The position numbers and the translations under genes are program-made. Below are positions 4,668 to 26,325 of a stretch of 64,000 bases of DNA, one piece after another. The stretch covers positions 98,491 through 162,490 of the forward strand of contig JAFYHU010000015.1 of assembly GCA_017538965.1 (NCBI GenBank), read 5' to 3'. The notes under the pieces are model-generated. The model did no database searches and had not been told where the DNA came from. It was given only the letters and a program-made list of their open reading frames with translations. The DNA comes from Oscillospiraceae bacterium. GTDB taxonomy: Bacteria; Bacillota; Clostridia; Oscillospirales; Oscillospiraceae. Positions within the stretch are counted from its first letter, which is position 1. Each line of letters opens with the position of its first letter.

Positions 4668-4696
4668 GAGAACGAAAGAAAGGAGGACAACCTCAA

Positions 4697-6128: not shown

Positions 6129-6134
6129 ATCATT

Positions 6135-6707: not shown

Positions 6708-6768
6708 ACCCACGCGGGCGGCGGGCACACAGCCTGCCGCCCATTTTGAGAAAGGAATGGTGATATAC

Positions 6769-9855: not shown

Positions 9856-9863
9856 GCGCGAAA

Positions 9864-9900
9864 ACGGGCAGCTCCGATGGTGGGGCTGCCCGTATTCTGT
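9864..9900 (+). terminator. Intrinsic terminator after the phage DNA polymerase gene
   Basis: ACGGGCAGCTCC-GATGGT-GGGGCTGCCCGT, a 12 bp stem, followed by ATTCTGTTT. It closes the rightward phage operon and separates it from the restriction-modification block. Confidence 0.8.
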
Positions 9901-9941
9901 TTCGATCCAAATACAAAAATGTGTAATTCGGTTAAAAAATC

Positions 9942-9971
9942 TTGACCGTAGTTAATCCAAAATGGTATTAT
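9942..9971 (+). promoter_or_regulatory. Promoter of the XRE regulator / hsd block
   Basis: TTGACC (9942-9947), an 18 bp spacer, and TATTAT (9966-9971), about 18 bp before the ATG at 9990. The region is clearly AT-richer than the genes around it. Confidence 0.6.
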
Positions 9972-9989
9972 GTCATCGGAGGTAGTGCT

Positions 9990-10442: not shown

Positions 10443-10459
10443 TCACTGGAGGCACAGCC

Positions 10460-13213
10460 ATGAATAAGCAAAAACTCGCATCCACAATCTGGGAATCCGC
10501 TAATGAGATGCGTTCGAAAATAGAAGCAAACGAGTATAAGGATTTTATCCTGGGCTTCATCTTCTATAAATACCTCTCCGAGAGTGAAGTACGCTTCTTG
10601 CGCGCTGAGCAAATGACTGATGAGGATATAGAACATCTGGATGAAAGCGACGAACAGTTTGTTGACTATGTCAAAGACAAGATCGGGTATTTCATTGAGT
10701 ACAAGAATCTGTTTTCGACCTGGATCGGCAAAGGCGACGATTTTGATGTCTCCGATGTCCGCACCGGCCTCTCCGCCTTTTCCCGCCTAATCGGGGCTAC
10801 ACACAAGAAGGTTTTTGATAAGATCTTCACCACCCTTCAGACCGGACTATCCAAGCTCGGTGAAAGTGCGTCTACGCAGACGAAAGCTATCAGCGGTCTT
10901 ATTACCCTCATCAATCAGATACCGATGGACGGGAAACAGGACTATGACGTCCTCGGCTTCATCTATGAATATCTGATCAGCAACTTTGCCGCAAACGCTG
11001 GAAAAAAGGCGGGCGAATTCTACACTCCCCATGAGGTTTCGGTCCTCATGTCAGAGATTGTCGCCGAGCATCTGAAAGACAGGACATCCATCCGTATTTA
11101 TGATCCGACGTCCGGCTCCGGATCGCTGCTGATTAACATCGGTGCGGCAGCATCCAAGTATATCCACGGCGATAACAAGATCACCTATTATGCGCAGGAG
11201 TTGAAGGAGAACACCTACAACCTTACGCGCATGAACCTTGTTATGCGTGGCATCGCTCCGAACTGCATCTTTGTCCGTAATGGGGATACCCTTGAACAGG
11301 ACTGGCCTTTCTTCGAAGATAATGAGCCCGAAAAATACCAGCTTACCCGTGTAGACGCTGTGGTTTCGAATCCGCCATACTCTCAAAAGTGGGATGTCAA
11401 GGACAAGAAATTTGATCCACGTTTTAAGCAGTACGGCGTCGCTCCAAAGGGAAAGGCAGATTATGCCTTCCTTCTCCATGACCTCTACCATTTGGAAGAG
11501 GACGGCATCATGACCATTGTCCTTCCGCATGGCGTATTGTTTCGTGGAAAAGAAGAAGAATCCATCCGCACAAATCTCGTGGAAAACAACAATATCGACG
11601 CCATCATCGGGTTGCCTGCCAACATCTTTTTTGGAACCAGCATTCCGACGATTATTATGGTCTTACGCCGCATCCGTAAAAACACGGATATTCTGATCAT
11701 CGACGCCTCAAAGGGTTTTGAGAAAACGAGCAAGAACAATGTCCTCCGGGCATCGGATATAAAACGCATCGCTGACACCATTAAAGCCAGAGCTGCTATT
11801 CCGGGCTTCTCTGTACTGGTCAGCAAAGAACAGGTTGTTGCAAATGGGTACAATCTGAATATTCCCCGATATATCGATAACACGGATCCCGTGGAACCCT
11901 GGGATATCCACTCTATCATGTTTGGCGGCATTCCCAAGAAGGAAGTTGCGCTTCTGCAGGAATACTGGGATGCCATTCCCGGATTGAAAGAAACGCTCTT
12001 TACTGAAGTGTCCTCTGACTATGTACAGTTCTCGTGTGAAGACATCGCCGCCCATGTTAATGAGCATCCCGCTGTTGCCCGTTACCACTCCCAATATGCA
12101 GAGGCTTTCTCTGGCTTTGCCGAGCTACTTAAAACTGACCTCATTGACCACCGCCATGAGATCGGTGTGGAAGCAGAGGAAGAAAAAATCAGTCAGGAAA
12201 TATTCCGGCGCATGGATGGAATCCCAGTTATCGACCCATACAACGCATACCAGGTACTGGATAATGCCTGGGTGCAAATTCGTATTGATCTGGATATTCT
12301 CCATACCGAGGGGGACACCGCACTTACCACGGTAGACCCAAATATGGTGACGAAGAAAAAGAATGACAAGACCATTGAAGTTCAGGAAGGCTGGGTTGGC
12401 CGTATCCTGCCCTTTGACCTTGTACAGCGTCAACTGCTGACCGATGATCTTGAAGCCCTTGAGGAGAAGCAAGCAGAACTGGCGGAGATTGATGCCGTCT
12501 ATGAGGAAATCATAGATTCGTTGGAAGATGACGAGCGTGAGGGCAGCATCACAAATGAAGGCAACATGTCCTTCTCTTCCAAGGGGGTCAAGGAGAAGGT
12601 GGCTGACATTTTGGAGGATGTTGAATCAGAGGAGATTACCGCTCTGCAGAAATACCTGACACTGTCCCGCAAGGCTGACAAACAGAACTATATCCGCGAC
12701 TGCAAAATTGTGGATTGGTCGGCTATTACCTACAGCGCAAACGGCACATATACGAAGACTGCCATTACTAACCGTATTGCCGAATTAAAGAGGCAGTTTG
12801 AATTCCCGGAGGATTCTTTTGAGCATAAGATGCTGTTGGTTCTCGATACTATTGAACGGGAAACTCAACTTAAGCGAGAGGTAAAGGAGATGTCTTCGGC
12901 GCTCCACGAGAAAACAAAAGCAACAATTGAACAGCTAACGGTTCATCAAGCATTGGATCTTTTATACAAAAAATGGGTAGACCCTATCACAAAGGGTATA
13001 AACCTGCTCCCTTCTCAGTTAATAATGACTCTATTGTTAAAGCTTCATCACTTAAGCGACAAGTATAAAGTCACGTTTTCTGAAGTAGGAGGTAAAATAA
13101 AAAAATCCGAAACAACTCTTTCTTCATTTGTTGGTGATCTTACAGCTACAAGCACGTTTGATCTTAGTGGTCTAAACGAACTGCGTGTGTTATTGGGAGG
13201 CGACAATGAGTAA
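10460..13213 (+). CDS. hsdM: Type I restriction-modification system, DNA methyltransferase subunit HsdM (long form)
   Basis: 917 residues, against about 500-550 for the classical subunit. The N-terminal HsdM_N helical domain (LASTIWESANEMRSKIEANE) is followed by the N6-adenine methyltransferase core: the AdoMet-binding motif DPTSGSGSLLI near residue 215 and the catalytic NPPY in SNPPYSQKWD near residue 305. The last 400 residues are a long helical, coiled-coil-rich extension. The subunit methylates adenine in the site read by HsdS. Base composition drops sharply from about 12880 on, and the low-GC block runs on into hsdS. It overlaps hsdS by 8 bp. Confidence 0.95.
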   Translation: MNKQKLASTIWESANEMRSKIEANEYKDFILGFIFYKYLSESEVRFLRAEQMTDEDIEHLDESDEQFVDYVKDKIGYFIEYKNLFSTWIGKGDDFDVSDVRTGLSAFSRLIGATHKKVFDKIFTTLQTGLSKLGESASTQTKAISGLITLINQIPMDGKQDYDVLGFIYEYLISNFAANAGKKAGEFYTPHEVSVLMSEIVAEHLKDRTSIRIYDPTSGSGSLLINIGAAASKYIHGDNKITYYAQELKENTYNLTRMNLVMRGIAPNCIFVRNGDTLEQDWPFFEDNEPEKYQLTRVDAVVSNPPYSQKWDVKDKKFDPRFKQYGVAPKGKADYAFLLHDLYHLEEDGIMTIVLPHGVLFRGKEEESIRTNLVENNNIDAIIGLPANIFFGTSIPTIIMVLRRIRKNTDILIIDASKGFEKTSKNNVLRASDIKRIADTIKARAAIPGFSVLVSKEQVVANGYNLNIPRYIDNTDPVEPWDIHSIMFGGIPKKEVALLQEYWDAIPGLKETLFTEVSSDYVQFSCEDIAAHVNEHPAVARYHSQYAEAFSGFAELLKTDLIDHRHEIGVEAEEEKISQEIFRRMDGIPVIDPYNAYQVLDNAWVQIRIDLDILHTEGDTALTTVDPNMVTKKKNDKTIEVQEGWVGRILPFDLVQRQLLTDDLEALEEKQAELAEIDAVYEEIIDSLEDDEREGSITNEGNMSFSSKGVKEKVADILEDVESEEITALQKYLTLSRKADKQNYIRDCKIVDWSAITYSANGTYTKTAITNRIAELKRQFEFPEDSFEHKMLLVLDTIERETQLKREVKEMSSALHEKTKATIEQLTVHQALDLLYKKWVDPITKGINLLPSQLIMTLLLKLHHLSDKYKVTFSEVGGKIKKSETTLSSFVGDLTATSTFDLSGLNELRVLLGGDNE

Positions 13214-14423
13214 AAAACCAACCCCTTCTATTCGATTCAAGGAATTTTCCGACAAATGGGAAGAGAAAAGAATAGACGAATGGGGCTTCTTTTACTACGG
13301 GCATAGTTGTCCAAAATGGTCAGTAACCCCCGATGCTACTATACCATGTATACGTTATGGTGAATTGTACACCAAATTTGGTGCAAAAATCGACAATGTT
13401 CACTCCTATACAAGCATGCCAGAGGATTGTCTTCGTTTTAGCAAGGGAAACGAGGTTCTGATCCCTCGGGTTGGAGAAGACCCAATGGACTATAATCATT
13501 GCACGTGGCTCTCATTAAAAAATGTTGCCATAGGAGAAATGATTTCGGTGTTTAATACTGAACAGAGCCCTTATTTCACCGCTATCATGTTTAATGCAAT
13601 GCTTCAAAAGGATTTTGCTATCCGAGTAGAAGGGGGAAGCGTAACAAATCTATATTATGATCAGTTGAAGGAGATCCTTGTTTCCTATCCTTCAGTAGGT
13701 GAACAAGAAAAAATCGCTGCATTCTTCGATGGAATTGATACAACAATCCAACTTAATAAAGAAAACCTGAAAAAAATGCAGCAAATTCGATTATCATTCT
13801 TGAAAACACTCTTTGCCTCCAAGGATGAAAAAATTCCACAAATCCGTTTTAATGGGTTTAATGGTAAGTGGCCTATTACACAACTGTCAGTTGTCATTAG
13901 CCCGTATAACGACTATCTTCAAACCCCTACTGACGGTTACACACGCCTCGGAATCCGCAGCCACATGAAGGGAACCTTCTACGAGTATGTGGCTCCCAGC
14001 AAGCAGCTCGGCGAAAAACGGCTCCAGCGCGTAAAACGTGACAACTTCATCGTCAACATTGTCTTCGCCTGGGAGCACGCCATAGCCGTCACCACCGAAG
14101 AGGATGAAGGGAAACTGGTCTCCCACCGCTTTCCACAGTTCAGCTTCAACAAGGGAATGTATCCGCGCTTTTTCCACTACGCTCTAAACGATGAGCGGTT
14201 CCGCCATCACCTCTGGCTTGCATCGCCCAGTGGCGCAGGGCGGAATAAAACGCTGCGGATTGATGAGATGCTGGAATATGAGCTCCGCGTCCCGGAATAC
14301 GAGGAGCAAAAGAAAATCGCCGACTTCCTGACTTCACTGGATGAGCTTATCGAACTATACGACTATCGAATCACCAAGCTACAAAACATCAAGGCCGCAT
14401 GCCTGCAGGGAATGTTCGTATAG
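13206..14423 (+). CDS. hsdS: Type I restriction-modification system, specificity subunit HsdS
   Basis: 405 residues from ATG at 13206, with GGGAGG upstream; an earlier ATG at 13185 lies inside hsdM. It has the usual two-fold layout: target recognition domain 1 (about 1-165), conserved helical spacer ending LKKMQQIRLSFLKTLFA (about 180-200), a second repeat beginning IPQIRFNGFNGKW, target recognition domain 2 (about 215-360), and the final conserved helices ending QNIKAACLQGMFV. The first half is AT-rich while the second half returns to the GC level of hsdR, so the two recognition domains seem to have different origins. It sets the DNA site of the complex. Confidence 0.93.
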   Translation: MSKKPTPSIRFKEFSDKWEEKRIDEWGFFYYGHSCPKWSVTPDATIPCIRYGELYTKFGAKIDNVHSYTSMPEDCLRFSKGNEVLIPRVGEDPMDYNHCTWLSLKNVAIGEMISVFNTEQSPYFTAIMFNAMLQKDFAIRVEGGSVTNLYYDQLKEILVSYPSVGEQEKIAAFFDGIDTTIQLNKENLKKMQQIRLSFLKTLFASKDEKIPQIRFNGFNGKWPITQLSVVISPYNDYLQTPTDGYTRLGIRSHMKGTFYEYVAPSKQLGEKRLQRVKRDNFIVNIVFAWEHAIAVTTEEDEGKLVSHRFPQFSFNKGMYPRFFHYALNDERFRHHLWLASPSGAGRNKTLRIDEMLEYELRVPEYEEQKKIADFLTSLDELIELYDYRITKLQNIKAACLQGMFV

Positions 14424-14435
14424 GGAGGTTGTCCC

Positions 14436-17400
14436 ATGACATATGAAACCGAAAAAGAATTTGAAGAGGTTGTCATAGCACAGCTAATCGAAGGTGGATG
14501 GAAATCCGTCATCCGCTACCCTACGGAGGAAGAACTGATCCAGAACTGGGCAAGCATTCTCTTTGAAAACAACCGTGGGCGGGATCAGTTGAACGGCTGT
14601 CCGCTCACCGGGGGAGAGATGGATCAGATCATCGAGCAGATTATTGCGCTCCGCACACCGCTGAAGCTTAATGACTTCATCAACGGAAAAAGCGTTTCTG
14701 TCCGACGAGATAATCCTGATGACCCGGAGCACCTCGGTCAGGAGGTAAGCCTCAAGATTTACGACCGGCAGGAAATCGCAAATGGGCAGAGCCGGTACCA
14801 GATCGTACAGCAGCCTAAGTTCAAAACACGTGCTGTCCTTAATGACCGGCGCGGCGACCTGATGCTACTGATCAACGGTATGCCCGTCATCCACATGGAA
14901 TTAAAGCGCAGTGGTGTCTCTGTCAGCCGGGCATACAACCAGATAGAGAAGTATGCTCACGAAGGCGTGTTCACTGGCCTCTTCTCCCTGATCCAAGTCT
15001 TTGTGGCGATGGAGCCAGAAGAAACGGTGTACTTCGCCAACCCCGGCCCCGATGGTGAATTCAACAAAGCGTTCTATTTCCACTGGGCAAACTTTGACAA
15101 TGAACCGATCAATAACTGGAAGCAGGTCGTATCCGAGCTTCTCAATATCCCGATGGCACATACGCTGATCGGTTTCTATACCATTCCAGATGCAAAGGAT
15201 AACACACTTAAGGTCATGCGCAGCTACCAGTATTACGCTGCGACAAGGCTTGCTGACAGGGTTACGGACAAAGACTGGTCAGATACCGACCTTCTCGGCG
15301 GGCATATCTGGCATACCACAGGCTCGGGAAAGACCTTAACGAGCTTCAAGTCGGCGCAGCTGATTGCCAGCTGGCATGATGCTGACAAGGTTGTTTTTCT
15401 CGTGGACCGGAAGGCGCTCGGCAGGCAGTCGTTTGACGACTTCACTGCCTTCGCCAGTCCGTCTGAGACTATTCAGGCCACCGAGGACAGCACCGAACTG
15501 GCTGCTAAGCTGAAAAGCGATTCTTCCCAGGATACGCTGATCGTCACTTCCATCCAGAAGCTCAGTAATGTGACGAAGGATGATGCCAACATCCGCGCCG
15601 CAGACCTGCAGAAAATTCTCTCGAAACGGATCGTCATCATCATCGACGAGGCGCACCGCTCCACTTTTGGGGAGATGCTCTCGAATATCAAGACGACGTT
15701 CAAGCATTCCCTTATCTTCGGTTTCACCGGAACGCCGATCCAGGATGTGAACAAGAAGAAGGATAATACCACGACCACAGTATTCGGCAGTGAGCTTCAC
15801 AGATATACCCTCGCTGACGGCATTCGCGATAAGAACGTGCTCGGCTTCGATCCCTACATGGTACTGATCTATAAGGACCATGATATCCGAGAAAAAGTTG
15901 CTCTTATGAAAGCAAGGGCCAAAACGGTTCAGGATGTCTTCAAAACCAAAAAGCAGGAGAAAATATACTATCACTACATGAATGCCTCCAAGGTGAAGAT
16001 GGCCGGGGAGAAAAAAGGCGAAAAGTACATTAAAGGCATAGAAGATTTCGTACCCAATTCACAGTACGAGGAACTCGTATACCGCAAAGCAGTGCTTCAG
16101 GATATTCTGGACAATTGGATTAGCCTAAGCCACAATGGCCTGTTCCATGCGATCTTTGCAACATCGACCATCCCGGAAGCTGTAGCATATTACAGGCTCC
16201 TTCGGGACATGGCGCCACAGCTGAATATCACGGGCGTTTTCGACCCAACCATCGATGACAACGGCGGTCGATCCCTGGACAAGGAAGATGGTATTGTTGA
16301 AATGCTCGAAGACTATGAGCGGATGTTCGGTCAGCCATTTTCCATGTCCGCTTATGATCAGTTCCGGGAGGATGTACAGCTGCGCCTTGCGCATAAAAAG
16401 CACTACAGTCACATCGGTCCCGACGAGCAAATCAACATCCTGATTGTTGTAAATCAAATGCTGACGGGCTTCGATTCCAAATGGATCAATACACTGTATA
16501 TGGATAAGGTCATGGATTACGAAAACCTGATTCAGGCCTTCTCCCGTACCAACAGGCTATATGGCGATGAGAAGCCATTCGGAATCATAAAGTACTACCG
16601 CCGTCCGCATACGATGGCGCGGAACATTGAGGAAGCGGTGCGGGCGTACTCCGGGGATATTCCTATTGGTCTGTTTGTCGACAAGCTGCCGGGAAACCTA
16701 CGAACGATCAATCGCCTGTTTGGTGAGATCTCTGATCTGTTCAAGAATGCTGGAATCGAAAACTTTGAGAAACTCCCGGAAGAAAAAGCGGTCGTTGGCA
16801 GATTTGCAAAGCTTTTTAAGCGGCTGAACCAAACTATCGAGGCCGCAATGATCCAGGGCTTCAGCTGGCAGAAAAGCCAGTATAGTCAAGTGTTGGATGA
16901 TGGAACGGAGGATTTCATCCCCGTGGATCTTGACGAACCAACATATCTGGCACTCCTCCACCGCTATAAGGAGCTTTCCTCCGGAGGCGGCGGTGGCTTT
17001 GGTGGAGATCCACCGTTTGAAATTGATACACATATCACCGAGATTAGAACCGACGCCATCGATGCGGATTACATGAATTCCCGCTTCGATAAGTTCTACA
17101 AACTGTGGGAAAAGGGCGGTTACGACCAAGAGACCTTCGACAATACCCTTGCTGCCCTTCATAAGTCGTTTGGCATGCTCAGCCCTGAGGAACAGAAATA
17201 CGCCAACCTGTTCATCCGCGATATACAGTCCGGCGACATCCGGGTAGACCCGAGCAGAACATTCCGGGATTACATCTCTGAGTATATGCGGCGTGAGGAA
17301 GATTCTCGTATTGCCCGTATGGTCAGACGGCTTGGATGCTATGCGGACAAGCTGAGAGAATTCCTCGACCGTAAGGTCACAGAAGCAAATTACAACGATG

Positions 17401-18413
17401 GGAACCGGTTTAGTGAATTAGTGGCGAGCGTGGATCGCGACCGGGCACGGGTCTTCTTTATGGCTGTGGAGAAACAGAACTATAGAGAATTCCGCCTTGG
17501 AATGCTTATCCACAATTACCTGAAACACTTCATCCTCACCGGCGGCAAGGATATGTACGATGATGTTGCCGAACCCAGAACGGAAAGCAATACTGCTTCC
17601 GAGCTAAGCGGTTCTCCACACAGATCGAATACCCAGAGTAGTTCCTCCGGCGGACACGTCGTGATCAATGGTGTACAATACAGCGCCTCTCGCTCGGTCG
17701 AAAAGAAAAGCCTTACCACATGGTATTCCGGCAGCGGAAAGAAAAACGCCGTCGCCTGTATGATGGATACCGGCTGCTTCGCTTATTTGGAGGAGAAGGT
17801 TTGTCTTAATCAGGAGCTGTATGTTCAGCGTGGTACCGACGGCAAAATGCACCTGACCGAATATGCTCGTTCCCACGAGGATGAATGCTTTTTACAGTTT
17901 GTCACAGACGATGACGGCGTCCTCCATTATGTGGTATTGCCAAAAAAGCTGGCTGATAAAGAATTTGAATACTCGAAGTTCATCTCCGAAGACATACTCA
18001 AAAAGTACGGTCTTGTCTGCGAGATGGCGCGGCTGATGCTTGAGGCGATTGAGCACATGGAATTCGGCCCCGCACTGAAGAAGCTCATGAGCAAGGGAAT
18101 CTGCAATTACACCGTGAGCTCGCTTTACACCACCACGGGGCTGGACAACCATACAATCTCCAATCTTCGTAGCGGTAAGAATTTGACAAACGTCAACGTA
18201 GTCTCCGCCCTCCTTGGTATTCAGGTGCCATATCCTGTAAGCGAGGCGATGTTGAAGCTGGCGAATATCTCATTCCCAACAGACCGCGGACCGGATAGCA
18301 ATAAGATGTATGTAATGCTGCTCAGTACCCGGTGGGCTGCTCCATACTATGAGATTTACGGAGATCTTGAATCCGAAGGTATGCAGGACCTGATAAAACA
18401 GCCACCGATTTAA
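14436..18413 (+). CDS. hsdR: Type I restriction-modification system, endonuclease/translocase subunit HsdR with C-terminal HTH-like extension
   Basis: 1325 residues, longer than the usual 1000-1100. The nuclease site is visible as D141 and the ELK of HMELKRSG (155-157), with the QxxxY motif at about 169-173. The motor has Walker A HTTGSGKT (293-300), the DEAH box in IIIDEAHRSTFG, and helicase motifs through about residue 700 (SRTNRLYGDE). After the helical spacer there is a Ser-rich linker near 1065-1085 (SGSPHRSNTQSSSSGG), then a 240-residue extension that ends with an HTH-like segment (CNYTVSSLYTTTGLDNHTIS, then NLRSG). The enzyme translocates and cuts unmethylated DNA. It follows hsdS by 12 bp with its own ribosome binding site. 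Confidence 0.95.
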   Translation: MTYETEKEFEEVVIAQLIEGGWKSVIRYPTEEELIQNWASILFENNRGRDQLNGCPLTGGEMDQIIEQIIALRTPLKLNDFINGKSVSVRRDNPDDPEHLGQEVSLKIYDRQEIANGQSRYQIVQQPKFKTRAVLNDRRGDLMLLINGMPVIHMELKRSGVSVSRAYNQIEKYAHEGVFTGLFSLIQVFVAMEPEETVYFANPGPDGEFNKAFYFHWANFDNEPINNWKQVVSELLNIPMAHTLIGFYTIPDAKDNTLKVMRSYQYYAATRLADRVTDKDWSDTDLLGGHIWHTTGSGKTLTSFKSAQLIASWHDADKVVFLVDRKALGRQSFDDFTAFASPSETIQATEDSTELAAKLKSDSSQDTLIVTSIQKLSNVTKDDANIRAADLQKILSKRIVIIIDEAHRSTFGEMLSNIKTTFKHSLIFGFTGTPIQDVNKKKDNTTTTVFGSELHRYTLADGIRDKNVLGFDPYMVLIYKDHDIREKVALMKARAKTVQDVFKTKKQEKIYYHYMNASKVKMAGEKKGEKYIKGIEDFVPNSQYEELVYRKAVLQDILDNWISLSHNGLFHAIFATSTIPEAVAYYRLLRDMAPQLNITGVFDPTIDDNGGRSLDKEDGIVEMLEDYERMFGQPFSMSAYDQFREDVQLRLAHKKHYSHIGPDEQINILIVVNQMLTGFDSKWINTLYMDKVMDYENLIQAFSRTNRLYGDEKPFGIIKYYRRPHTMARNIEEAVRAYSGDIPIGLFVDKLPGNLRTINRLFGEISDLFKNAGIENFEKLPEEKAVVGRFAKLFKRLNQTIEAAMIQGFSWQKSQYSQVLDDGTEDFIPVDLDEPTYLALLHRYKELSSGGGGGFGGDPPFEIDTHITEIRTDAIDADYMNSRFDKFYKLWEKGGYDQETFDNTLAALHKSFGMLSPEEQKYANLFIRDIQSGDIRVDPSRTFRDYISEYMRREEDSRIARMVRRLGCYADKLREFLDRKVTEANYNDGNRFSELVASVDRDRARVFFMAVEKQNYREFRLGMLIHNYLKHFILTGGKDMYDDVAEPRTESNTASELSGSPHRSNTQSSSSGGHVVINGVQYSASRSVEKKSLTTWYSGSGKKNAVACMMDTGCFAYLEEKVCLNQELYVQRGTDGKMHLTEYARSHEDECFLQFVTDDDGVLHYVVLPKKLADKEFEYSKFISEDILKKYGLVCEMARLMLEAIEHMEFGPALKKLMSKGICNYTVSSLYTTTGLDNHTISNLRSGKNLTNVNVVSALLGIQVPYPVSEAMLKLANISFPTDRGPDSNKMYVMLLSTRWAAPYYEIYGDLESEGMQDLIKQPPI

Positions 18414-18430
18414 CCGAATATCATACCCGA

Positions 18431-18461
18431 TAGGCCAGACGAAAGTCTGGTCTATTTTTTT
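18431..18461 (+). terminator. Intrinsic terminator of the hsd operon
   Basis: CCAGAC-GAAA-GTCTGG with a GNRA-type loop, extended by TAG/CTA, then seven T residues. 18 bp after the hsdR stop. Confidence 0.9.
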
Positions 18462-18601
18462 GCTCAAAAAATTATTTTCGCCTTGTTGAACATTCTTCAA
18501 TGGATAACAGGCTGTCTGCGTGACTGGAGCACCAGGAAGCCCACATTCCTCCATTGAACTTCCTACAATGCGTCTCAAATCCAATCGGAATATTATGTAC
18601 A

Positions 18602-18615
18602 TGTTCTTAAGAACA
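18602..18615. promoter_or_regulatory. Perfect 14 bp palindrome, candidate operator
   Basis: TGTTCTTAAGAACA is a perfect dyad in the AT-rich stretch before the structured leader. It could be an operator of a dimeric repressor for the 18897 gene; no specific regulator is identified. Confidence 0.35.
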
Positions 18616-18639
18616 AATCGGCAAAACGCCCCGCCAGTC

Positions 18640-18887
18640 TCTTATAGAGAGTAGGGGAAGCCAACCGGCTGACGAGTCGGAAGGTAGCCGATAGAACACC
18701 ATCATCCACAACGACGCAGAGGGGCCGGATTCCCAAAGCAGCGCAGGGCCGGAGTGGATGATAACGAAAACGAGCCAGCAACCCTTGCGCAGGCTGGCCA
18801 CCAACCGCAGAAAACGGGGTGGCCAAGGAATGAAGAAAGTGAATATCGCTATAGCGTCTGCTCCTTTTCTGCCTTCAAGAAAAGGAG
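18640..18887 (+). ncRNA. Structured leader RNA ending in a hairpin that sequesters the ribosome binding site
   Basis: The region before the 18897 gene has no supported coding frame but several helices in series: CGGCT...AGCCG with an inner GAC/GTC; ATCATCCAC pairing with GTGGATGAT; TGGCCACC pairing with GGTGGCCA; and last CTCCTTTTCT (18861-18870) pairing perfectly with AGAAAAGGAG (18878-18887) across a 7-base loop. The last right arm contains the AAGGAG ribosome binding site of the ATG at 18897. Translation control through this hairpin is inferred; no named riboswitch class was recognised. Confidence 0.5.
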
Positions 18888-18896
18888 TAAGACAAA

Positions 18897-19568
18897 ATGG
18901 CAAAGAAGCAGTCCGTTGATTTCAGCACCTACAATTTTGAGCAGAACCCTGACAACTACACCGTGGAGGAGACCATCACCATCAAGACGATGATGGCGGC
19001 CAATGAGCCGATCTATCTCGCGCCCATCCGAATCGAGATTAGGGAGCAGTTGGAGAACCTCCACACCGACTACGCGCACTGCAAAACCTGGCACATTGGC
19101 GCTGAGGCGGTCACCGTCAAGCTGACACCCTGTAACGAGGCGATCTACGACATGATGGTGTCGATCCTCCGCACCGAACACAGGGACGGCGTTCGCAAAT
19201 CTCGCTGCGTCGTGCGTGGCAAGCGCGGCGGCACCATCCGCTGTGACGAGCAGAACAAGTGCCGGGAATGCCCGTATGGTCGAAAGCCCGAGGATCGGGA
19301 ATACCAGGAAGTATCCTGGGATGAGCTGGTAGAGACCGGCTTTGACCCTGGTGCGGCTGACACCACCTCCGCTCCTGTCCTGCTCGACATGGCGGTCGAG
19401 GACGCCCGCAGGCAGATGGCCACTGAGGACCCGCGCCTGGTTACGGTTTATGACATGTTGGACGAGCACAAGTCCGTTACCGACATCATGGCGGCGCTCG
19501 GCATCAGCCAGAGGCGGACTTATCAGCTGATCGCCCGGTGCCGGGAGATCGTAAAAGCCAATCTGTAA
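18897..19568 (+). CDS. Hypothetical mobile-element protein with sigma-70-like HTH
   Basis: 223 residues. The middle has a Cys cluster (CDEQNKCRECPYG, near residue 120) that may bind metal, set in a basic region. The C-terminus (about 180-220) reads VTDIMAALGISQRRTYQLIARCREI, a sigma region 4 or Trp-repressor-like helix-turn-helix. Proteins like this are common in Clostridia mobile elements (general recollection) but have no assigned role. It is a single gene between the hsd operon and the pilus locus, preceded by the structured leader and an RBS-burying hairpin. It could be a regulator of the element. Confidence 0.75.
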   Translation: MAKKQSVDFSTYNFEQNPDNYTVEETITIKTMMAANEPIYLAPIRIEIREQLENLHTDYAHCKTWHIGAEAVTVKLTPCNEAIYDMMVSILRTEHRDGVRKSRCVVRGKRGGTIRCDEQNKCRECPYGRKPEDREYQEVSWDELVETGFDPGAADTTSAPVLLDMAVEDARRQMATEDPRLVTVYDMLDEHKSVTDIMAALGISQRRTYQLIARCREIVKANL

Positions 19569-19650
19569 GGGACTATCATCGCTACGAGGACAAGCAGCCC
19601 ATTCGGGATACAGCATGGCTGCATTCTGGGTGGGCAGCGAAAATAAGCAG

Positions 19651-19687
19651 TAATGCCATCATCGGTTTCGCGCCTTTGATGGCATTA
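19651..19687. repeat. Perfect 11 bp inverted repeat in a 267 bp non-coding gap
   Basis: TAATGCCATCA (19651-19661) and TGATGGCATTA (19677-19687). No T run follows, so it is a poor terminator for the 18897 gene. The rest of 19569-19780 shows no gene; this gap is the likely area of the boundary between the mobile block and the pilus locus, but no attachment site could be shown. Confidence 0.4.
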
Positions 19688-19781
19688 TGCGCTATAACGA
19701 GATAGGGGTGGAAATGTATTATCGCGCAAAATAAAAACCCCGACGGGAAGCCGAGCGCAACAAAATAAGTAGTTCACAGAA

Positions 19782-19812
19782 AAGCCCCCGGGCGATGGTG
19801 CCCGGGGGCTTT
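19782..19812. terminator. Intrinsic terminator downstream of the first truncated pilin copy
   Basis: AAGCCCCCGGGC-GATGGT-GCCCGGGGGCTT, a 12 bp stem. The minus strand is followed by TTCTG and the plus strand by TTCATGATTTTT. It lies 24 bp past the stop of the leftward pilin fragment, as a pilin terminator would. Confidence 0.75.
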
Positions 19813-19835
19813 CATGATTTTTCATTCATGTTCAC

Positions 19836-20183
19836 TTAAAGGGATTTTGCTTTAGAACCTGCTGTTCCATCAACCACGAATGTCGGAGCAGTTGTCCCAT
19901 CAGCATAAACAGTAACAAGAACGGTATTCCCTGTTTTTGGTGTAATCTTAGTTGTTCCTGACTTGAGATCAACATCAGCCACAGTTGCTTCTGCAGAAAC
20001 CCAATCTTCGGTGGTCTGCTTTATATCTACAGACTTACAAACCGAATCATATGTTGCTGTATCAATAGTCAATACTTCTGCTGCACACTCTGCATACGCA
20101 GAACGAAGGTTAGCAAGATCTGTCGCCTCTCTACTCTTCTCCAACTGACTTGTGAAAATCGGAATCGAAATCGCTACCAGCAC
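19836..20183 (-). pseudogene. 5'-truncated type IV pilin copy 1 (candidate silent cassette)
   Basis: A 115-codon open frame that enters in the middle of the pilin N-terminal helix: AISIPIFTSQLEK, then SREATDLANLRSAYAE, the same helix as in the intact pilin. The leader peptide, the cleavage site, the conserved Glu and half of the hydrophobic helix are missing; upstream is a stop codon 33 bp away and no ribosome binding site. The C-terminal 75 residues differ strongly from the intact pilin. It keeps its own terminator. It may be a donor for gene conversion or a decayed duplicate. Confidence 0.75.
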
Positions 20184-20458
20184 GCCCCACAAGGACTCCA
20201 GACCTCGGATGCTGTGTTAAATTTCTGATAACGAATGTAGTGCGGTTTACGGCCCGCCGCACACTCATCTTCCATTCCGTGCCAACAATGGCTTTCTGCG
20301 CTACCGATGGAAATGTGCGCTATTTTGAGTACGAGCAAAAATGCAACATAGCGCAGAATGTACGGAGGCAGTCGAGGAGGCCGATTTGGTCGGTATCGGC
20401 AGATGTGCAACATAATCCGAAACTCACAACCACAGAGGCTGCCAGCATTGTGGCGGCC

Positions 20459-20809
20459 GTGCTGACTGCTATCGCCATCCCGGTTTTCACAAGCCAACTG
20501 GAGAAGGCGAAAGAATCAACTGACTTAGCTAATGCCCGTTCTGCGTACGCAGCCTGCATGGCGGCTTGCCTTGTGGAAGATCCAGCTCCTGCGTCCACAG
20601 ACAAGATCACTTACACTCGTACAGGAGATCAGGGAGCTTATGTCTATACAGCCGTTGTAGACATGACTCAGGGCGAAGATGGCTGGAAAACCACTGATGG
20701 TGACAAGGCGGTTGCTGGCATTCAGTCAACTGGTAGTGTTACTGGAGGCGGTACTTGCACTATCACAGTTACCGAAGGTTCCGATACAGTTACTATTGTA
20801 TACGCCTAA
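20459..20809 (+). pseudogene. 5'-truncated type IV pilin copy 2, inverted (candidate silent cassette)
   Basis: Clear pilin homology starts at VLTAIAIPVFTSQLEK and runs 116 codons to a normal pilin end (TVTIVYA), on the strand opposite to the intact gene. The leader is gone; the frame stays open upstream but has no pilin-like leader (TTTEAASIVAA in place of FTLAELLIVVAIIA). The middle part differs from the intact pilin and has an extra Cys pair (AACMAAC-type segment). It breaks at the same codon (GTG CTG) as copy 1, and the two truncated 5' ends face each other 275 bp apart. A terminator follows at 20853. Confidence 0.75.
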
Positions 20810-20852
20810 AGCTGTATAATTCAGACCCCCGGGAAGGCCTGAAAACGACAAG

Positions 20853-20890
20853 AAGAGCATCCTCTGCATGCGGGGATGCTCTTTCGTTGT
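20853..20890 (+). terminator. Intrinsic terminator after pilin copy 2
   Basis: AAGAGCATCC pairs with GGATGCTCTT across an 11-base loop containing GCATGC, followed by TCGTTGT on the plus strand. Confidence 0.75.
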
Positions 20891-20894
20891 CCGT

Positions 20895-20930
20895 AGGAAA
20901 AGCCCCGTCCCGCATGCTGGGACAGGGCTT
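20895..20930 (-). terminator. Intrinsic terminator of the intact pilin gene
   Basis: On the minus strand AAGCCCTGTCCC pairs with GGGACGGGGCTT across a loop with GCATGC, then TTTCC. It lies about 55 bp past the pilin stop. Confidence 0.75.
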
Positions 20931-20982
20931 TGTTGCCACCCTCTCTCTTCCCGGAGAAGAGAGGCGACAGGTTTTTAGTTGA

Positions 20983-21399
20983 TTATGCGTAAACGATAGT
21001 AACAGCGTTGGTCGCCTGAGTCCAAGTGATTGTAGCAGTTCCACCAACGGTCGGGCTACCAGTAGCGGTAATACCGGCAACAGCAGTAGCTGCACCACTT
21101 GTCTGCCAATCAGCCTGAGCCTGCTTCAGATCAACGACAGCAGTAACTGTACGAGAACCAGCGGCACCATCGCAAGTAAAGGTTACGCCATTATCAGTAT
21201 GTGTCGTTGCACCGTCATCGAGCGCATCGACCATAACCTGAGCATAAGCCGCACGCACATTCGCGAGGTCAGTCGCCTCACGGCTCTTCTCCAACTGTCC
21301 TGTGAACACCGGAATCGCAATAGCAGTCAGCACGGCGATGATCGCAACGACGATCAGGAGCTCTGCGAGGGTAAAGCCTTTTTTGTTGTTCTTTTTCAA
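20983..21399 (-). CDS. Type IV prepilin (major pilin, intact copy)
   Basis: 138 residues from a TTG at 21399, which has AGGAGG 8 bp upstream. The precursor begins L/M-KKNNKKG, then FTLAELLIVVAIIAVLTAIA, a class III signal: cleavage after Gly, Phe at +1, Glu at +5, and a hydrophobic helix. The conserved helix continues IPVFTGQLEKSREATDLANV, then a variable globular part ending in NAVTIVYA. A frame runs 62 codons further upstream, but it has no pilin character and overlaps the leader RNA. It is the last gene of the pilB-pilT-pilC-pilin cluster and has its own promoter. It is the likely recipient if the two truncated copies are donors. Confidence 0.9.
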   Translation of the reverse strand: MKKNNKKGFTLAELLIVVAIIAVLTAIAIPVFTGQLEKSREATDLANVRAAYAQVMVDALDDGATTHTDNGVTFTCDGAAGSRTVTAVVDLKQAQADWQTSGAATAVAGITATGSPTVGGTATITWTQATNAVTIVYA

Positions 21400-21558
21400 G
21401 TTCTTTTCCTCCTTAAAATATTTATGAAGTGTCGCGAAAGATTTGCTTCCTCCGCGTTTTTCACTGTAAACCAAAACGCTTTGTGAAGCTGGTTTTATTT
21501 CAAGGCTACCGGGAATAGCCTCGGAAATCCATTCTCTGTATCGGTCCTCGATGCTCTT

Positions 21559-21868: not shown

Positions 21869-23086
21869 TCACATGACGCTGTACATGCTGAAGATAGACA
21901 TGTAGATTGCGATGACGATGTACCCTGCAATGCCGGCGAGCACAACCAGGAGAGCCGGTTCCAGTTTGGCAATCGCCGCGGCGACAGCGGTTTCAAGTTC
22001 GACATCATAGTAATTGGCAATGGTGGTCAGCGTGGACTCCATTTCACCGGTTTCTTCACCGACCGAGACCATGTCAATCAGAATATCGGGCATCACGCCG
22101 CTTTCCCGCATACTGGCGCCAAGACTGCGGCCTTCTTCCAGTTTGCCGGCATATTTGCCGACTTCCTGACTGATAAAGTAGTTATCGATGACCTTGGCCG
22201 TGATGGAAATGCTCTTCGTCATGGGCAAGCCTGCTTTCAGCATTGTCGCCATGGAATTGGCAAACTGGCTCGCGGAATTGAGCTCGGCAATTTCGCCGAG
22301 AACCGGCAGCTTCAACTGCCACTGGGCGAACTTCAGACGGCCTTCTTCGGTATTGCCATAGATCTTATAGAACAGAAAGATCGCAACGCCTATGCCAAGC
22401 AGGACCATCCAATATTTAGTAAAGAAGTTGGAGAGTGCAATCAGAGATTTTGTGATCGCGGGAAGCTCAGCACCGTAACTGTCAAAGATGGAGGTAAACG
22501 TCGGGACAACCTTGACCATCAGGACAACCACAACCGCAATCGCAATGACCATAACGAATGCCGGATAGGACAGGGCGCTTTTAACTTTGCCGGCCATTTT
22601 GGTCTGTTTGTCAAGGTGGTCACCGACGGACTGAAAAGCGCTGTCCAGGCTGCCGGATTCCTCACCGGCGCGGATGGTCTCAATAAAGGTAGGCGGAAGG
22701 AGCTTGCCTCCGCGCTCCTCAAAGCTGGCGGCAACGGACCGTCCGGATTCGACATCGCCGGCAACCTGATTCAGAATTCGTTTGAGGTTTTTGTCGGTCG
22801 TTTTCGCGGCAATCAGGTGGACGGTACGGGAGATCGGGATACCGGCTTTGATGATAATGGCAAACTGATTGCACATCAGCGTGAACGCCTTCATGTTTAG
22901 CTTGGTGCCGCCGAGGTCTTTATTCAGAAAGCCCATGCCGCCTTCCCCATTGACCGGGGTAATCTTCAGGACAATATCACAGGTTTCCCGGATATGATCG
23001 ACGGCGTCCATCTCGTTAAATGCCTCGATGACACCGTTAACACGCTTGCCGGAATGCGAGATGGCAGTATATTTGTAGGTTACCAG
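21869..23086 (-). CDS. pilC: Type IV pilus inner-membrane platform protein PilC/GspF
   Basis: The family N-terminus (VTYKYTAISHSGKRVNGVIE, then AFNEMDAVDHIRE) is encoded upstream of the first ATG (23011) and the frame opens after a TGA 12 bp before a CTG at 23086. Taking CTG as the start gives 405 residues, the normal PilC length, with GGAGGG 12 bp upstream; an ATG start would lose 25 conserved residues. Two T2SS_F repeats are seen (FTLMCNQFAIIIKAGIPISR and SQFANSMATMLKAGLPMTKS), with membrane segments near 195-215, 245-265 and 375-400. It anchors the pilus motor between pilT and the pilin gene. Confidence 0.92.
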   Translation of the reverse strand: MVTYKYTAISHSGKRVNGVIEAFNEMDAVDHIRETCDIVLKITPVNGEGGMGFLNKDLGGTKLNMKAFTLMCNQFAIIIKAGIPISRTVHLIAAKTTDKNLKRILNQVAGDVESGRSVAASFEERGGKLLPPTFIETIRAGEESGSLDSAFQSVGDHLDKQTKMAGKVKSALSYPAFVMVIAIAVVVVLMVKVVPTFTSIFDSYGAELPAITKSLIALSNFFTKYWMVLLGIGVAIFLFYKIYGNTEEGRLKFAQWQLKLPVLGEIAELNSASQFANSMATMLKAGLPMTKSISITAKVIDNYFISQEVGKYAGKLEEGRSLGASMRESGVMPDILIDMVSVGEETGEMESTLTTIANYYDVELETAVAAAIAKLEPALLVVLAGIAGYIVIAIYMSIFSMYSVM

Positions 23087-23116
23087 AGACGATCACATCC
23101 CTCCGGGATAGAGTAG

Positions 23117-23155
23117 AGAATTGAGAGTTGAGAGTGGAGAGTTGAGAGTTGAGAG
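23117..23155. repeat. Short-unit GAGAGTT tandem repeat
   Basis: Repeats of GAGAGTTGA / GAGAGTGGA (CAACTCTC on the other strand) between pilC and pilT. Non-coding. Confidence 0.6.
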
Positions 23156-23185
23156 ACGGGAGATCTGCTGCGGCAGAATAAGAGA

Positions 23186-23230
23186 ACGGATTGCCACAAC
23201 AGTGACATCGGTCACTGTTTCGCAATGACA
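23186..23230. repeat. REP-like palindrome
   Basis: ATTGC-CAC-AACAGTGAC-ATCG-GTCACTGTT-TC-GCAAT: a perfect 9 bp inner stem plus an outer ATTGC/GCAAT pair, between pilC and pilT. Palindromes with the same 'ATTGCCAC...GCAATGACA' frame are common intergenic repeats in Oscillospiraceae-type genomes (general recollection). Confidence 0.6.
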
Positions 23231-23345
23231 GAGGTCTTTGGGATTAATCGTAATGGGTCCGTGGATTCAACTTAGACCGGTTCGGGATTTCAAGAAACCA
23301 TCCAAGATCAAAACGACAAGTCGGATAAGCGGAAAGCCGCTTTCC

Positions 23346-24392
23346 TTAGATAGCGGTTTTCTTGACGTATTCGGGTTCGTGGGCGTATTTGACGGCCATT
23401 TCGCGGGTGATCTGGCCAGCACGGACGAGGCGGACGAGGGCCTGGTCCATGGTCTGGCCGCCGATGGCGGCGCTGGTGGCCACAGCGTTGGCGATCTGCG
23501 GGGTGTTGCCCGCGCGAATCAGGTTGCGGATGGCATCCGTGACGATCATCAGCTCGCAGGCCAGGGCACGTCCCCCGTTCTTCTTGGGAACCAACTGCTG
23601 GGTCAGGACGGCCTGCAGGCACATGGAAAGCTGAAGGCGGATCTGCGTCTGCATGCCCTCGGGGAAGACCTGAACAATACGGTCGACCGAGTCGGAGGCA
23701 CTGCCGGTGTGCAGGGTGCCAAAGACAAGGTGGCCGGTCTCGGCCGCGGTGATGGCGGTTTCGATCGTGTCCTTGTCACGCATTTCACCGATCAGAATGA
23801 CATTCGGGTCTTCACGCAGGCTGGCGCGCAGGCCTTCGGAGAAGCTGACGGTATCCTTGCCGACTTCGCGCTGGTTGATAGCACAGAGATCTGGTTTATA
23901 CAGATATTCAATTGGGTCCTCGAGCGTGACGATGTGGTCGCGCCGGTTGTGATTGATGTAGTCAAGCATCGCCGCCAGGGTCGTCGATTTACCGGACCCG
24001 GTTTCACCGGTGACGAGGATGATGCCCTTATGCTGCTTGGTCAGGTCCAGCGCGGCCGGCGGAAGGCCGAGGGACTCCAGCGGCGGGATCTGCTCGCGCA
24101 GGAGACGCAGGGCCAGGGAAGGCACACCCTGCTGACGGAAGAGGTGAACACGGCAGCGGTTGCCGCCCCAGGTCCCGGCAGAGTCTACCTCGCCGATCTC
24201 AGCCATCTGTTCATAGGCGTCGCCCGCAAGCTCACGCGCCATCTGTTCGCAGTCCTCCCTCGTCAGGGGGACGTCAGACATGTCCTGCAATTGGCCGTCC
24301 TTGCGGTATTTCGGAGGCAGGCCGCAGATCAGGTGAAGGTCCGAGGCGCCGTCTTCTTTGCATTTTCTAACCAGAGCATCTATATCTACCAT
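23346..24392 (-). CDS. pilT: Type IV pilus retraction ATPase PilT
   Basis: 348 residues from ATG at 24392, with AGGAGG 9 bp upstream; a longer frame enters the upstream repeat and is rejected. It has the PilT PAS-like N-terminal domain (ASDLHLICGLPPKYRKDG), Walker A GETGSGKST near 134, the Asp box (LEDPIEY), Walker B ILIGEMRD near 200, the His box (GHLVFGTLHTGSA), and the retraction-specific C-terminus ending near AVKYAHEPEYV. PilT disassembles the pilus and gives twitching and DNA uptake. It lies between pilB and pilC on the same strand. Confidence 0.95.
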   Translation of the reverse strand: MVDIDALVRKCKEDGASDLHLICGLPPKYRKDGQLQDMSDVPLTREDCEQMARELAGDAYEQMAEIGEVDSAGTWGGNRCRVHLFRQQGVPSLALRLLREQIPPLESLGLPPAALDLTKQHKGIILVTGETGSGKSTTLAAMLDYINHNRRDHIVTLEDPIEYLYKPDLCAINQREVGKDTVSFSEGLRASLREDPNVILIGEMRDKDTIETAITAAETGHLVFGTLHTGSASDSVDRIVQVFPEGMQTQIRLQLSMCLQAVLTQQLVPKKNGGRALACELMIVTDAIRNLIRAGNTPQIANAVATSAAIGGQTMDQALVRLVRAGQITREMAVKYAHEPEYVKKTAI

Positions 24393-24422
24393 GCGGGAAA
24401 ACCTCCTAAGGAAAACAATGTG

Positions 24423-24605
24423 CCCGTTCGCAGCTTTCTGCAATTGCGCGGGAAAGAAAGCAGTCCCTCGCACTTAGGTTACTGCACCGCGCTAACTCCT
24501 CACAAGCTACGGATCTTTCGCTTCCCTGAAGCGTCAGGAAAGCTCACTCCCTCCGCTGCTCGTCGTTCTCCGATGAAAACCCGCTTCACTGGGCTTTCCA
24601 TCGGG
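24423..24605 (-). repeat. Dispersed intergenic repeat, copy A (module 2)
   Basis: On the minus strand it reads CCCGATGGAAAGCCCAG, GAGCGGGTTT-type bases, CGACGAGCAGCG, GACGCTTC, CTTGTGAGGAG and ends near CGCGCAATTGCAGA then ACGGGC. The same order of blocks is found at 50595-50779 and, partly, at 46788-46856. It separates pilB from pilT and holds no credible gene. Confidence 0.8.
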
Positions 24606-24618
24606 TATATACATAAAT

Positions 24619-26325
24619 TTAATTATCGTCGTTGACCACGCGGAGGATTTCGGACGCAGTGGTCACGCCCTCGCGGGCAAGGTTCAGAGCGCTTTCACGG
24701 AGCGAAACAAATCCGCTGCCGGGTTTGTGGAGTTCATCCTCGATCTGCGCACGGGGAGCGCCGTTGGCAATCATGCGGCGCAGCACGGAATTCAGAGTCA
24801 TAACCTCGACCACGGCGGTACGGCCGCGGTAGCCTGTATTGAAGCAGTTGGGGCAGCCTTTGCCGTGATACAGCGTCAGGCCTTTTTCATCCGGAATACC
24901 GAGCTCCTGCAGTTCTTCCTCTGTGGCGGTATAAGCTTCCTTGCAGGTCGGGCAGATCTTGCGCAGCAGACGCTGTGAGACCATGCCGCGCATGGCGCTG
25001 GCAACCAGATAGGGCTCGACGCCGATGTCTTCGAGACGTTCAATCGTACCGACGGCGTCGTTGGTGTGGATGGTGGAAAGCACGACGTGGCCGGTGATGG
25101 CGGCGCGCATTGCAATATCCGCGGTCTCACCGTCACGGATTTCGCCGACAGCGATGATGTCCGGGTCCTGACGCAGGATGGAGCGCAGGCCGCTGGCGAA
25201 AGTCAGGCCGACCTTTTCGTTGATCTGGACCTGGTTGACGCCGTCGATGTTGTACTCGACAGGGTCTTCCAGCGTGACCAGGTTCACATCGCGGCGGTTG
25301 ATCTCATGAATCATGCTGTACATGGTTGTGGTCTTACCGCTTCCGGTAGGGCCGACGACGAGAATGACGCCGTTGCGGTACTTCAGCAGATTCTTGATGG
25401 CAGCAAGGCCCTCTTCGGTCAGGCCAATGTTCTCGAGACTGACACGGCCGCCGGACTTATCCAGCAGACGGGCGACGATCTTCTCACCGTAAACCGTGGG
25501 CAGGGTGGAGACACGAAGGTCGATGTTCTTGTCCTTGACACGGACGTTAAAGCGGCCGTCCTGCGGGATACGGCGTTCGGCGATGTTCAGGCCGGACATG
25601 ATCTTGATACGGGACAGAACCGAGTTCTGCAGATCGCGCGGAACGGTCAGGATGTCCTGCATGATGCCGTCAATACGCATACGGACGAGAAGCTCGGTCT
25701 CATGCGGTTCCAGATGGACGTCACTGGCGCGTTCGAGAACGGCACGCTCGATGATGCTGTTGACCAGACGGATGGTCGGCGCGCTCGAAACATCGTCGAC
25801 ACCCAGCTGGTTCGTGGCAAAGGCGTTGTCCGTCTCAGGAGCCGTCTCGCCGGCGTTGGCTTCCCGCCGCATCTCTTCGATGGCACGGGCGGCGCCTTCG
25901 TTGCCGTAGAGGATCTGAATGCTGTGCTCAATGGCCTTCTTGGTTGCGAGGACCGGCACCACTTTACGGCGCACGGCCTTGCGGACTTCTTCGATCGCAT
26001 AGAAGTTCAGCGGGTCGCTCATGGCGAGGTACAGTTCGTCCTTGACCGCGCGGATCGGGACGACCATGTACTGCTTGGCGATGTTCTTCGGAACGACCTG
26101 GGCAAGTTCAGTGGGAATATTGATTTTTGTAAGGTCAACAAACTCGATGCCGAGCTGCATCTGCAGCGCTTCGATCAGTTCCTCCTCGGTGATGATGCCG
26201 TTGGCAATCAGCACGTCGCCGAGGCGGCCCTTCTGTTCCTTCTGAAGCGCCAGACCTTTATCCAGTTCTTCCTGGGTGATGGTGCCTGCCGCGATGAGCA
26301 GTTCACCCAGCCGCATATAAGCCAC
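24619..26325 (-). CDS. pilB: Type IV pilus assembly ATPase PilB (GspE family)
   Basis: 568 residues from a GTG at 26325 with AGGAGG 7 bp upstream. It contains the MshEN/T2SSE_N domain (LGELLIAAGTITQEELDKGL), the conserved EKASDVHLE-like block (ERASDVHLEPHE), Walker A GPTGSGKTTT near 325, Walker B IAVGEIRDGETA near 395, the His box (GHVVLSTIHTND), and the zinc tetracysteine CPTC...CPNC near 458-490. It drives pilus extension. First gene of the pilus cluster, with its own promoter behind the infB terminator. Confidence 0.95.
   Translation of the reverse strand: MAYMRLGELLIAAGTITQEELDKGLALQKEQKGRLGDVLIANGIITEEELIEALQMQLGIEFVDLTKINIPTELAQVVPKNIAKQYMVVPIRAVKDELYLAMSDPLNFYAIEEVRKAVRRKVVPVLATKKAIEHSIQILYGNEGAARAIEEMRREANAGETAPETDNAFATNQLGVDDVSSAPTIRLVNSIIERAVLERASDVHLEPHETELLVRMRIDGIMQDILTVPRDLQNSVLSRIKIMSGLNIAERRIPQDGRFNVRVKDKNIDLRVSTLPTVYGEKIVARLLDKSGGRVSLENIGLTEEGLAAIKNLLKYRNGVILVVGPTGSGKTTTMYSMIHEINRRDVNLVTLEDPVEYNIDGVNQVQINEKVGLTFASGLRSILRQDPDIIAVGEIRDGETADIAMRAAITGHVVLSTIHTNDAVGTIERLEDIGVEPYLVASAMRGMVSQRLLRKICPTCKEAYTATEEELQELGIPDEKGLTLYHGKGCPNCFNTGYRGRTAVVEVMTLNSVLRRMIANGAPRAQIEDELHKPGSGFVSLRESALNLAREGVTTASEILRVVNDDN

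Follow-up and report, generated by a model that had tools for sequence, protein, structure and literature searches.

Leaderless pilin heads cut at one codon in a Clostridia type IV pilus locus point to probable head switching by inversion at a site shared with prophages

The 64,000-nucleotide stretch analysed here (the window; Oscillospiraceae bacterium, assembly GCA_017538965.1, contig JAFYHU010000015.1, positions 98,491 to 162,490) contains an intact type IV pilin gene and two leaderless pilin copies. The intact gene (20983..21399, minus strand) is an open reading frame with a TTG start and an N_methyl domain (PF07963), encoding a constant leader and the first part of helix α1, followed by the head. 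An AlphaFold model of its product (mean predicted local distance difference test score, pLDDT, 88.7) folds into helix α1, residues 11-60, and then a β head; the closest PDB structures are the type IV pilins FimA and PAK, at expectation values (E) of only 0.014-0.022. Upstream of the intact gene are open reading frames that we take to be pilC, pilT and pilB (21869..26325, minus strand), and homologues of the frames in this region adjoin pilins in other genomes.

Copy 1 (19836..20183, minus strand; GTG at 20183 to the stop at 19836, 115 aa) is oriented like the intact gene, and copy 2 (20459..20809, plus strand; GTG at 20459 to the stop at 20809, 116 aa) is convergent with it. The first residue of both copies is the Val of IAV/LTAIAIP (VLVAIS in copy 1). 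Because the cut falls inside the helix, what varies between copies is the remainder of helix α1 and the entire head. A sequence-only reading of this stretch had described an intact pilin beside two leaderless copies that both start at this codon of the pilin helix, with their truncated ends facing each other 275 bp apart, and the sequence, open reading frames and coordinates bear this out. In our view, the convergent, tail-to-tail pair formed by the intact gene and copy 2 (875 bp) is more important than the face-to-face arrangement of the two truncated ends.

The similarity of the copies to the intact pilin exceeds chance: a search of the whole genome with the intact pilin recovered copy 2 at E 4.0e-30 and copy 1 at E 1.6e-11. 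At the nucleotide level, the comparison reveals a 93-nt DNA repeat at 76% and inverted arms at 70-73%, and the longest exact runs common to the intact head and the leaderless copies are 14, 14 and 17 nt. The C-terminal VTIVYA is common to copy 2 and the intact gene; the preceding T, which had also been counted as shared, differs. A terminator-like hairpin lies past the end of copy 1 (19781..19812, listed on the plus strand by the terminator scan), and a spacer with hairpins (20810..20982) separates the two convergent heads and includes one terminator-like site (20862-20875, plus strand). Both copies lack a leader, as had been reported. On the accompanying claim that they lack a promoter, a promoter scan says little: the sole promoter-like site it found sits inside the intact gene, with none seen ahead of the copies and none ahead of the intact gene either. 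Two RNA-family matches at the pilin locus fell below the gathering score and were discarded.

Beyond the window, the same 162-kb contig (C3 of the source genome, G000, which contains the window and all four pilin loci) carries a third leaderless copy and a second intact pilin (334 aa) beside it, both missing from the sequence-only reading. The third copy (C3:59477-59806; E 9.9e-15 in the whole-genome search with the intact pilin) is cut at the same Val codon. The 59 kb separating it from copy 1 is a prophage (C3:59807 to ~118673; window share 1..19835) with genes for terminase, portal, head protein, tape measure, endolysin, DNA polymerase and helicase. Its window part contains the helicase, the DNA polymerase and a type I restriction-modification system; the phage structural genes, the third copy and a pair of large serine recombinase (LSR) genes lie outside the window. 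The pair, LSR1 (462 aa) and LSR2 (500 aa), is located next to the third copy at C3:61037-63878, and each protein has Resolvase, Recombinase and zinc-ribbon domains. G000 thus has the hallmark of an LSR prophage, a three-domain recombinase at the prophage end. Unlike attP arms at the two host-phage junctions were not found; instead, both ends of the G000 prophage carry pilin heads. The prophage end gene in the window (18897..19568, plus strand, 223 aa) is homologous to a 287-aa gene of the virus record G884 (score 154 vs a shuffle maximum of 53), located near the end at which a pilin head runs off the G884 contig.

In a genome of the same genus (G089), pilC, pilin 1 and pilin 2 are adjacent and uninterrupted, and pilin 2 (338 aa) matches the tail of the 334-aa pilin of G000 with 60% identity over 288 aa. 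The prophage of G000 has pilC and the leader on one side, and the third head with the 334-aa pilin on the other. It could not be demonstrated that this third head was the host's own to begin with, as it is among the least similar to the other pilins of the genus.

The association of leaderless heads with the LSR pair extends to other genomes and viruses. Loci with an LSR2 above 50% identity are G000, G065 (81%), G111 (74%; its locus is on the same contig as L104), L105 (73%) and the viral contigs L124 (81%) and L125-L131 (53-56%). Three of these loci (L124, L130 and L131) stop at or before the LSR1 end and were excluded, leaving nine that can be read beyond LSR1. In eight of the nine (G000, G065, G111 and L125-L129), a leaderless pilin head cut at the same Val codon lies 0.2-1.8 kb past LSR1. 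Among loci with distant LSR2 relatives (L106-L123, L132-L140), 0 of 27 had a pilin by motif scan, L120, which the scan had flagged, proving not to be a pilin, and 0 of the 5 virus records of L132, L133, L136, L138 and L140 had one by profile search. Plasmid records gave no LSR2 match. Relatives of LSR2 occur in 24 phage records, all below 60% identity (20 of the 24 being in the matches listed), and the one such record that was scanned had no leaderless pilin. Two unannotated phage records with a pilin match were set aside as well, their pilins carrying a leader. Separately, a viral contig (3300010278_000047) has an intact, leader-bearing pilin (L200 3905-4327) in a phage structural operon, just before a tape-measure-like gene.

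Near one end, the 81.8-kb virus record G884 carries leaderless heads in a tandem array of three, of which one has decayed; at the opposite end, a further pilin head runs off the contig. The tandem leaderless copies of L129 have other genes between them, and one (L129c) is decayed. In G111, the LSR pair is accompanied by a regulator and a relaxase-like gene (by eye) and not by phage structural genes, which suggests that the pair travels with differing cargo.

All 18 of the listed leaderless sites start at the same Val codon, and the GT of this codon is the first point common to the sites preceded by an arm and those preceded by a leader. In the intact gene, this GT belongs to the Val23 codon (21332..21333, minus strand, the leader-side site), where it is the putative crossover dinucleotide. 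The arm upstream of copy 2 (P2, 20424..20458, plus strand) has CACA 34 nt before the GT, and its outer flank is collinear with that of G038; the arm upstream of copy 1 (P3, 20184..20218, minus strand) has CACA 33 nt before the GT and resembles the arm beside the G000 LSR genes, a similarity matched by 0 of 1000 shuffles. Across the 18 sites, ACA occurs 32 or 33 nt before the GT in 14, a count that 0 of 2000 shuffles reach (maximum 6), and with near-duplicates removed it is present in 10 of 13 (again 0 of 2000 shuffles). The motif scans depend on the codons right after the cut and hence miss copies cut further on; one such copy (G884:331-459) was found by profile search and is excluded from the leaderless-site counts.

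The phages L125, L126 and L127 allow the exchange point to be placed more closely. They are ~97% identical over kilobases, and their last 60 nt before the GT agree at 53-57 positions; two of the three pairs of heads are no more alike than shuffles, and the L126 and L127 heads are related (116 vs 59). Because the arms agree while the heads differ, the exchange point is placed at or very near the site. The association with the LSR pair, together with the ACA upstream of a common cut, argues that the cut is a recombination site and not the end of a Neisseria-style donor.

Six loci contain a convergent pair: an intact gene with a spare head in G000, G038 and L197, and two spare heads in L126, L127 and L128. 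All 15 pairwise comparisons of these loci were made, with local alignment scores set against shuffles. The outer flanks on the P2 side are homologous in three of them (G000/G038, 53 vs shuffle 27; L127/L128, 167 vs 24; L126/L197, 239 vs 34). In all three, the spacer aligns in inverted orientation relative to the P2 flank: 141 inverted vs 36 in the same orientation for G000/G038 (shuffle maximum 22-24), 103 vs 25 for L127/L128 (shuffles at most 25), and 144 vs 32 for L126/L197 (shuffles at most 25). Of the remaining 12 comparisons, G038/L126 alone gives a spacer score above shuffles (34 vs 25), and its flanks show no homology. For G000/G038, collinearity extends to the leader-side flank (167 vs 26). 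Inverted spacers beside homologous P2 flanks imply that the spacer has been flipped versus its surroundings in one member of each pair. In the window, the segment predicted to invert comprises the copy 2 head, the terminators and the intact head (20459..21333, no strand assigned); it is bounded by two oppositely oriented GT sites, and its spacer is inverted relative to both flanks in G038.

The earlier reading had allowed that copies in relatives might carry frameshifts or stops; of the 18 spare heads, 15 are open throughout, with 99-132 codons. The exceptions are L127b, which is short (82 codons), L129c, which runs into unrelated sequence, and G065, which is cut by a contig end. It had also allowed that the copies might have a leader elsewhere, and related heads do. 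A head 81% identical to that of copy 2 follows a leader in P0002, and this leader nearly equals the one of the present host; a head 78% identical to it follows a leader in P0003 (Oribacterium sp. WCC10). For copy 1, P0083 (64%) has such a head behind a leader, and P0082 (77%) has it leaderless. No identical head with a leader was present among the matches listed (80 of 80; best 120 of 489).

Leaderless copies are no general by-product of pilin genes. A profile search of 102 genomes of the genus placed them in 4 (G000, G038, G036 and G065); 19 of the 102 have a pilin match at E 1e-6. In the family sample they occur in 3 of 400 genomes (G000, G478 and G111; 74 with a pilin match at E 1e-8) and in the class sample in 1 of 391 (G000; 44 with a pilin match at E 1e-12). 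These frequencies are lower bounds, because some genomes had only part of their candidates scored; the searched genomes are mostly multi-contig drafts. G350, which has a frameshifted leader (by eye), and G238, which stops at a contig edge, were left out of the count.

Comparison of these loci establishes the common cut, the shared arm, the LSR association, the prophage between the copies and the inverted spacers. We consider it likely that they reflect switching of pilin heads by inversion, in a Moraxella-like manner, at a site that is also used by integrating LSR prophages, which re-head the pilin. The cell would probably swap its pilus surface by cut-and-paste recombination. The leaderless copies would then be interchangeable pilin heads, each beginning at one recombination site, the GT of the Val codon for residue 23 in helix α1: a leader joined to a head would give a readable gene, and another upstream arm joined to a head would give a spare. 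Recombination between the inverted sites of the intact gene and copy 2 would flip the segment and bring the other head behind the leader and promoter. Between sites in the same orientation, it would instead lead to excision or insertion, of 1150 bp for the intact gene with copy 1 and of 60,017 bp for the intact gene with the third copy.

Prophages and other elements with the LSR pair would insert at the same pilin site, their own site consisting of an arm and a head. The host leader would be fused to the element's head, keeping the pilin readable with a new head, and the displaced old head would be left leaderless behind the element's arm at the LSR-side end; stacked insertions would leave tandem leaderless copies. 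Insertion of elements with an arm-head site would account, in this model, for heads at both prophage ends, for tandem spares with genes between them and for the common cut. We infer that the LSR pair catalyses both the flip and the insertion, and that switching is ongoing; its use would be to alter the pilus surface seen by phages, hosts or substrates. A broader proposal, which we hold tentatively, is that a Clostridia prophage family has made the host pilin gene a combined docking site and switchboard, with the LSR pair inserting the phage inside the gene, replacing the head on arrival and so converting the pilus met by phages and hosts, and flipping or stacking cassettes at a two-base site, such that mobile-element traffic drives pilin diversification.

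Several observations weigh against head switching by inversion at an LSR site. The ACA is missing from 5 of 19 arms (G478, L126b, L127b, L128b and a 19th site found later, L197), and the head fragment at G884 331-459 (L192 331-459) is cut three codons past the Val, beside transposase-like sequence (by eye). Both outer flanks are conserved in G000/G038 only: in L127/L128, the LSR genes and the P2 flank are collinear but the P1 arm is unaligned (25 vs shuffle 35), and in L126/L197 the P2 flank alone is conserved, with an LSR arm on the other side in one and a leader in the other. The heads, too, fail to follow a simple inversion. The intact head of G000 is closest to the intact head of G038 (89) and not to its spare head (37), the copy 2 head of G000 also scores with the intact head of G038 (72), and none of the four L127/L128 heads match; heads must therefore be replaced by further events as well, such as insertion. 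L105 has the LSR pair but no pilin, and the L197 record, G038 and G036 gave no LSR2 relative at E 1e-20. The chemistry of the site would be unusual: at classical sites an LSR would leave the pilin broken at one end, and here both ends look like pilin. The rarity of spare heads also counts against this reading.

One rival holds that the leaderless copies are integration scars only, with the pilin gene serving as an attachment site, the copies being displaced halves without a switching role, and the convergent pairs being accidental products of earlier insertions and deletions. The proximity of the LSR pair and the prophage to the copies is consistent with this, as are the tandem copies of L129 with genes between them and the decayed L129c, the direct orientation of copy 1 and the third copy of G000, which is expected of insertions, and heads that do not pair as a simple inversion predicts. 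Insertion alone is, however, insufficient to explain spacers inverted versus the P2 flank in three locus pairs, one of them with both flanks conserved, and the full open frames of most spare heads also speak against scars. We regard this explanation as unlikely, if well short of negligible.

A second rival keeps the flip and assigns it to another enzyme, for example a small serine invertase, with LSR prophages merely exploiting a site that already switches. Another enzyme is suggested by the convergent pairs of G038 and the L197 record, which, like G036, lack an LSR2 relative at the above threshold, by the single LSR pair of G478 (E about 1e-47), which is on a contig other than that of its pilin, and by a serine invertase-like gene of Hin/Gin size in G038 (203 aa, L037 10708-11319), 1.6 kb upstream of the pilin. 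On contig C3 of G000, however, no serine recombinase other than the LSR pair was found, and the copy 2 and G038 arms have the same CACA spacing as is found beside LSR pairs. We think this account improbable, with some weight left to it.

The sequence-only reading had proposed a pilin variation system of the pilS/pilE type. A variation system is retained here and the type is not. Silent leaderless pilin parts adjoin the expressed gene in Neisseria as well, and are copied into it by homologous gene conversion, and the conserved helix could anchor pairing for such RecA-driven conversion of spare-head parts into the intact gene. The evidence here is instead of one fixed junction with a shared upstream arm, of spacer inversion rather than one-way copying, and of LSR elements at the site; the shared exact runs reach only 14-17 nt, and no G-quadruplex (G4) motif, a structure that lies upstream of the expressed gene in Neisseria, was found in 19501-22500 on either strand, upstream of the pilin included. 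Gene conversion is accordingly very improbable. That the spare heads are chimeric assembly joins of repeated pilin helix sequence is hardly credible: some contigs do end in or near a pilin copy (G065, G884, G238), but genomes and viral contigs that are independent of one another show the same cut and arm, and a single 162-kb contig carries the four pilin loci of G000.

By what it does, head switching by inversion has its closest known counterpart in Moraxella. In Moraxella bovis and Moraxella lacunata, the two pilin 3′ parts of tfpQ/tfpI are located on a segment that inverts while the constant 5′ part stays outside it, so that flipping changes which pilin is expressed; the recombinase, Piv, is of the IS110 type. 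A site-specific inversion system between two pilin genes has been described there (PMC4073114). Convergent heads and a constant 5′ part outside the segment are found here as well. The systems differ in that no IS110 recombinase over the cut-off occurs in G000 and the one in G038 is on another contig; in addition, the site described here also takes prophage insertions, and extra heads stack beside it.

In the R64 shufflon, alternative C-terminal parts of pilV are switched by Rci, a tyrosine recombinase. The likeness is one of anatomy only, namely several alternative 3′ parts in both orientations, each beginning from a recombination site at the same codon. No tyrosine recombinase domain match (PF00589) is present on contig C3 of G000 or contig C111 of G038, all such matches being on other contigs, and the pilin affected here is of the ordinary short kind, encoded beside pilC, rather than a minor tip pilin. 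Prophages with large serine integrases and elements of the staphylococcal cassette chromosome (SCC) type insert inside a conserved gene and rebuild an open frame at one end. The present elements likewise sit in a conserved gene whose frame is restored, and the two tandem LSR genes recall ccrA/ccrB. Here, however, the restored part is variable, so integration would change the protein, and both ends of the G000 element carry a pilin head.

Moraxella is known to switch pilins by inversion, and conjugative plasmids have pilV shufflons; Clostridia are now seen to have a similar anatomy, in which the recombinases differ and there is a tie to the integration of prophages. In the titles and abstract openings among the matches listed, which covered few subscription papers, we found no description of serine recombinases acting on a type IV pilin gene or of a prophage inserted in one. 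If the proposed mechanism is correct, becoming a lysogen would in itself alter the pilus, and single genomes would understate how variable the type IV pili of these Clostridia are. With their short, defined sequence, the leader-arm-head sites lend themselves to a direct test of the recombination reaction.

Further genes were noted around the pilin sites. Two genes accompany the LSR pair in many related loci (L009 15889-17221 in G000), encoding a 277-aa protein with an amidoligase-like PHROG match and a 153-aa protein with an HNH-like PHROG match and a sub-threshold MYND finger. An IS630-like transposase gene (by eye; L009 10032-11222) lies between the third head and the second intact pilin. 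In G111, the interval from the intact pilin to the spare head (L099 2819 to L100 9968) contains a polysaccharide-type locus besides the LSR element (by eye), and a similar large membrane protein gene follows each pilin head (by eye), a possible case of host-gene capture between two sites. Within the window, the prophage end adjoining the spare heads carries the type I restriction-modification genes HsdM, HsdS and HsdR (9942-18413), with a possible regulator ahead of them. Defence-like genes are also found near both ends of a related prophage (L193 2367-5464, L129 13477-16750), namely an LmuA/LmuB or PDC-M68-like pair, a LeoBC-like GTPase and a weak AbiD match; the flanks of the pilin site may serve as a cargo spot for defence genes.

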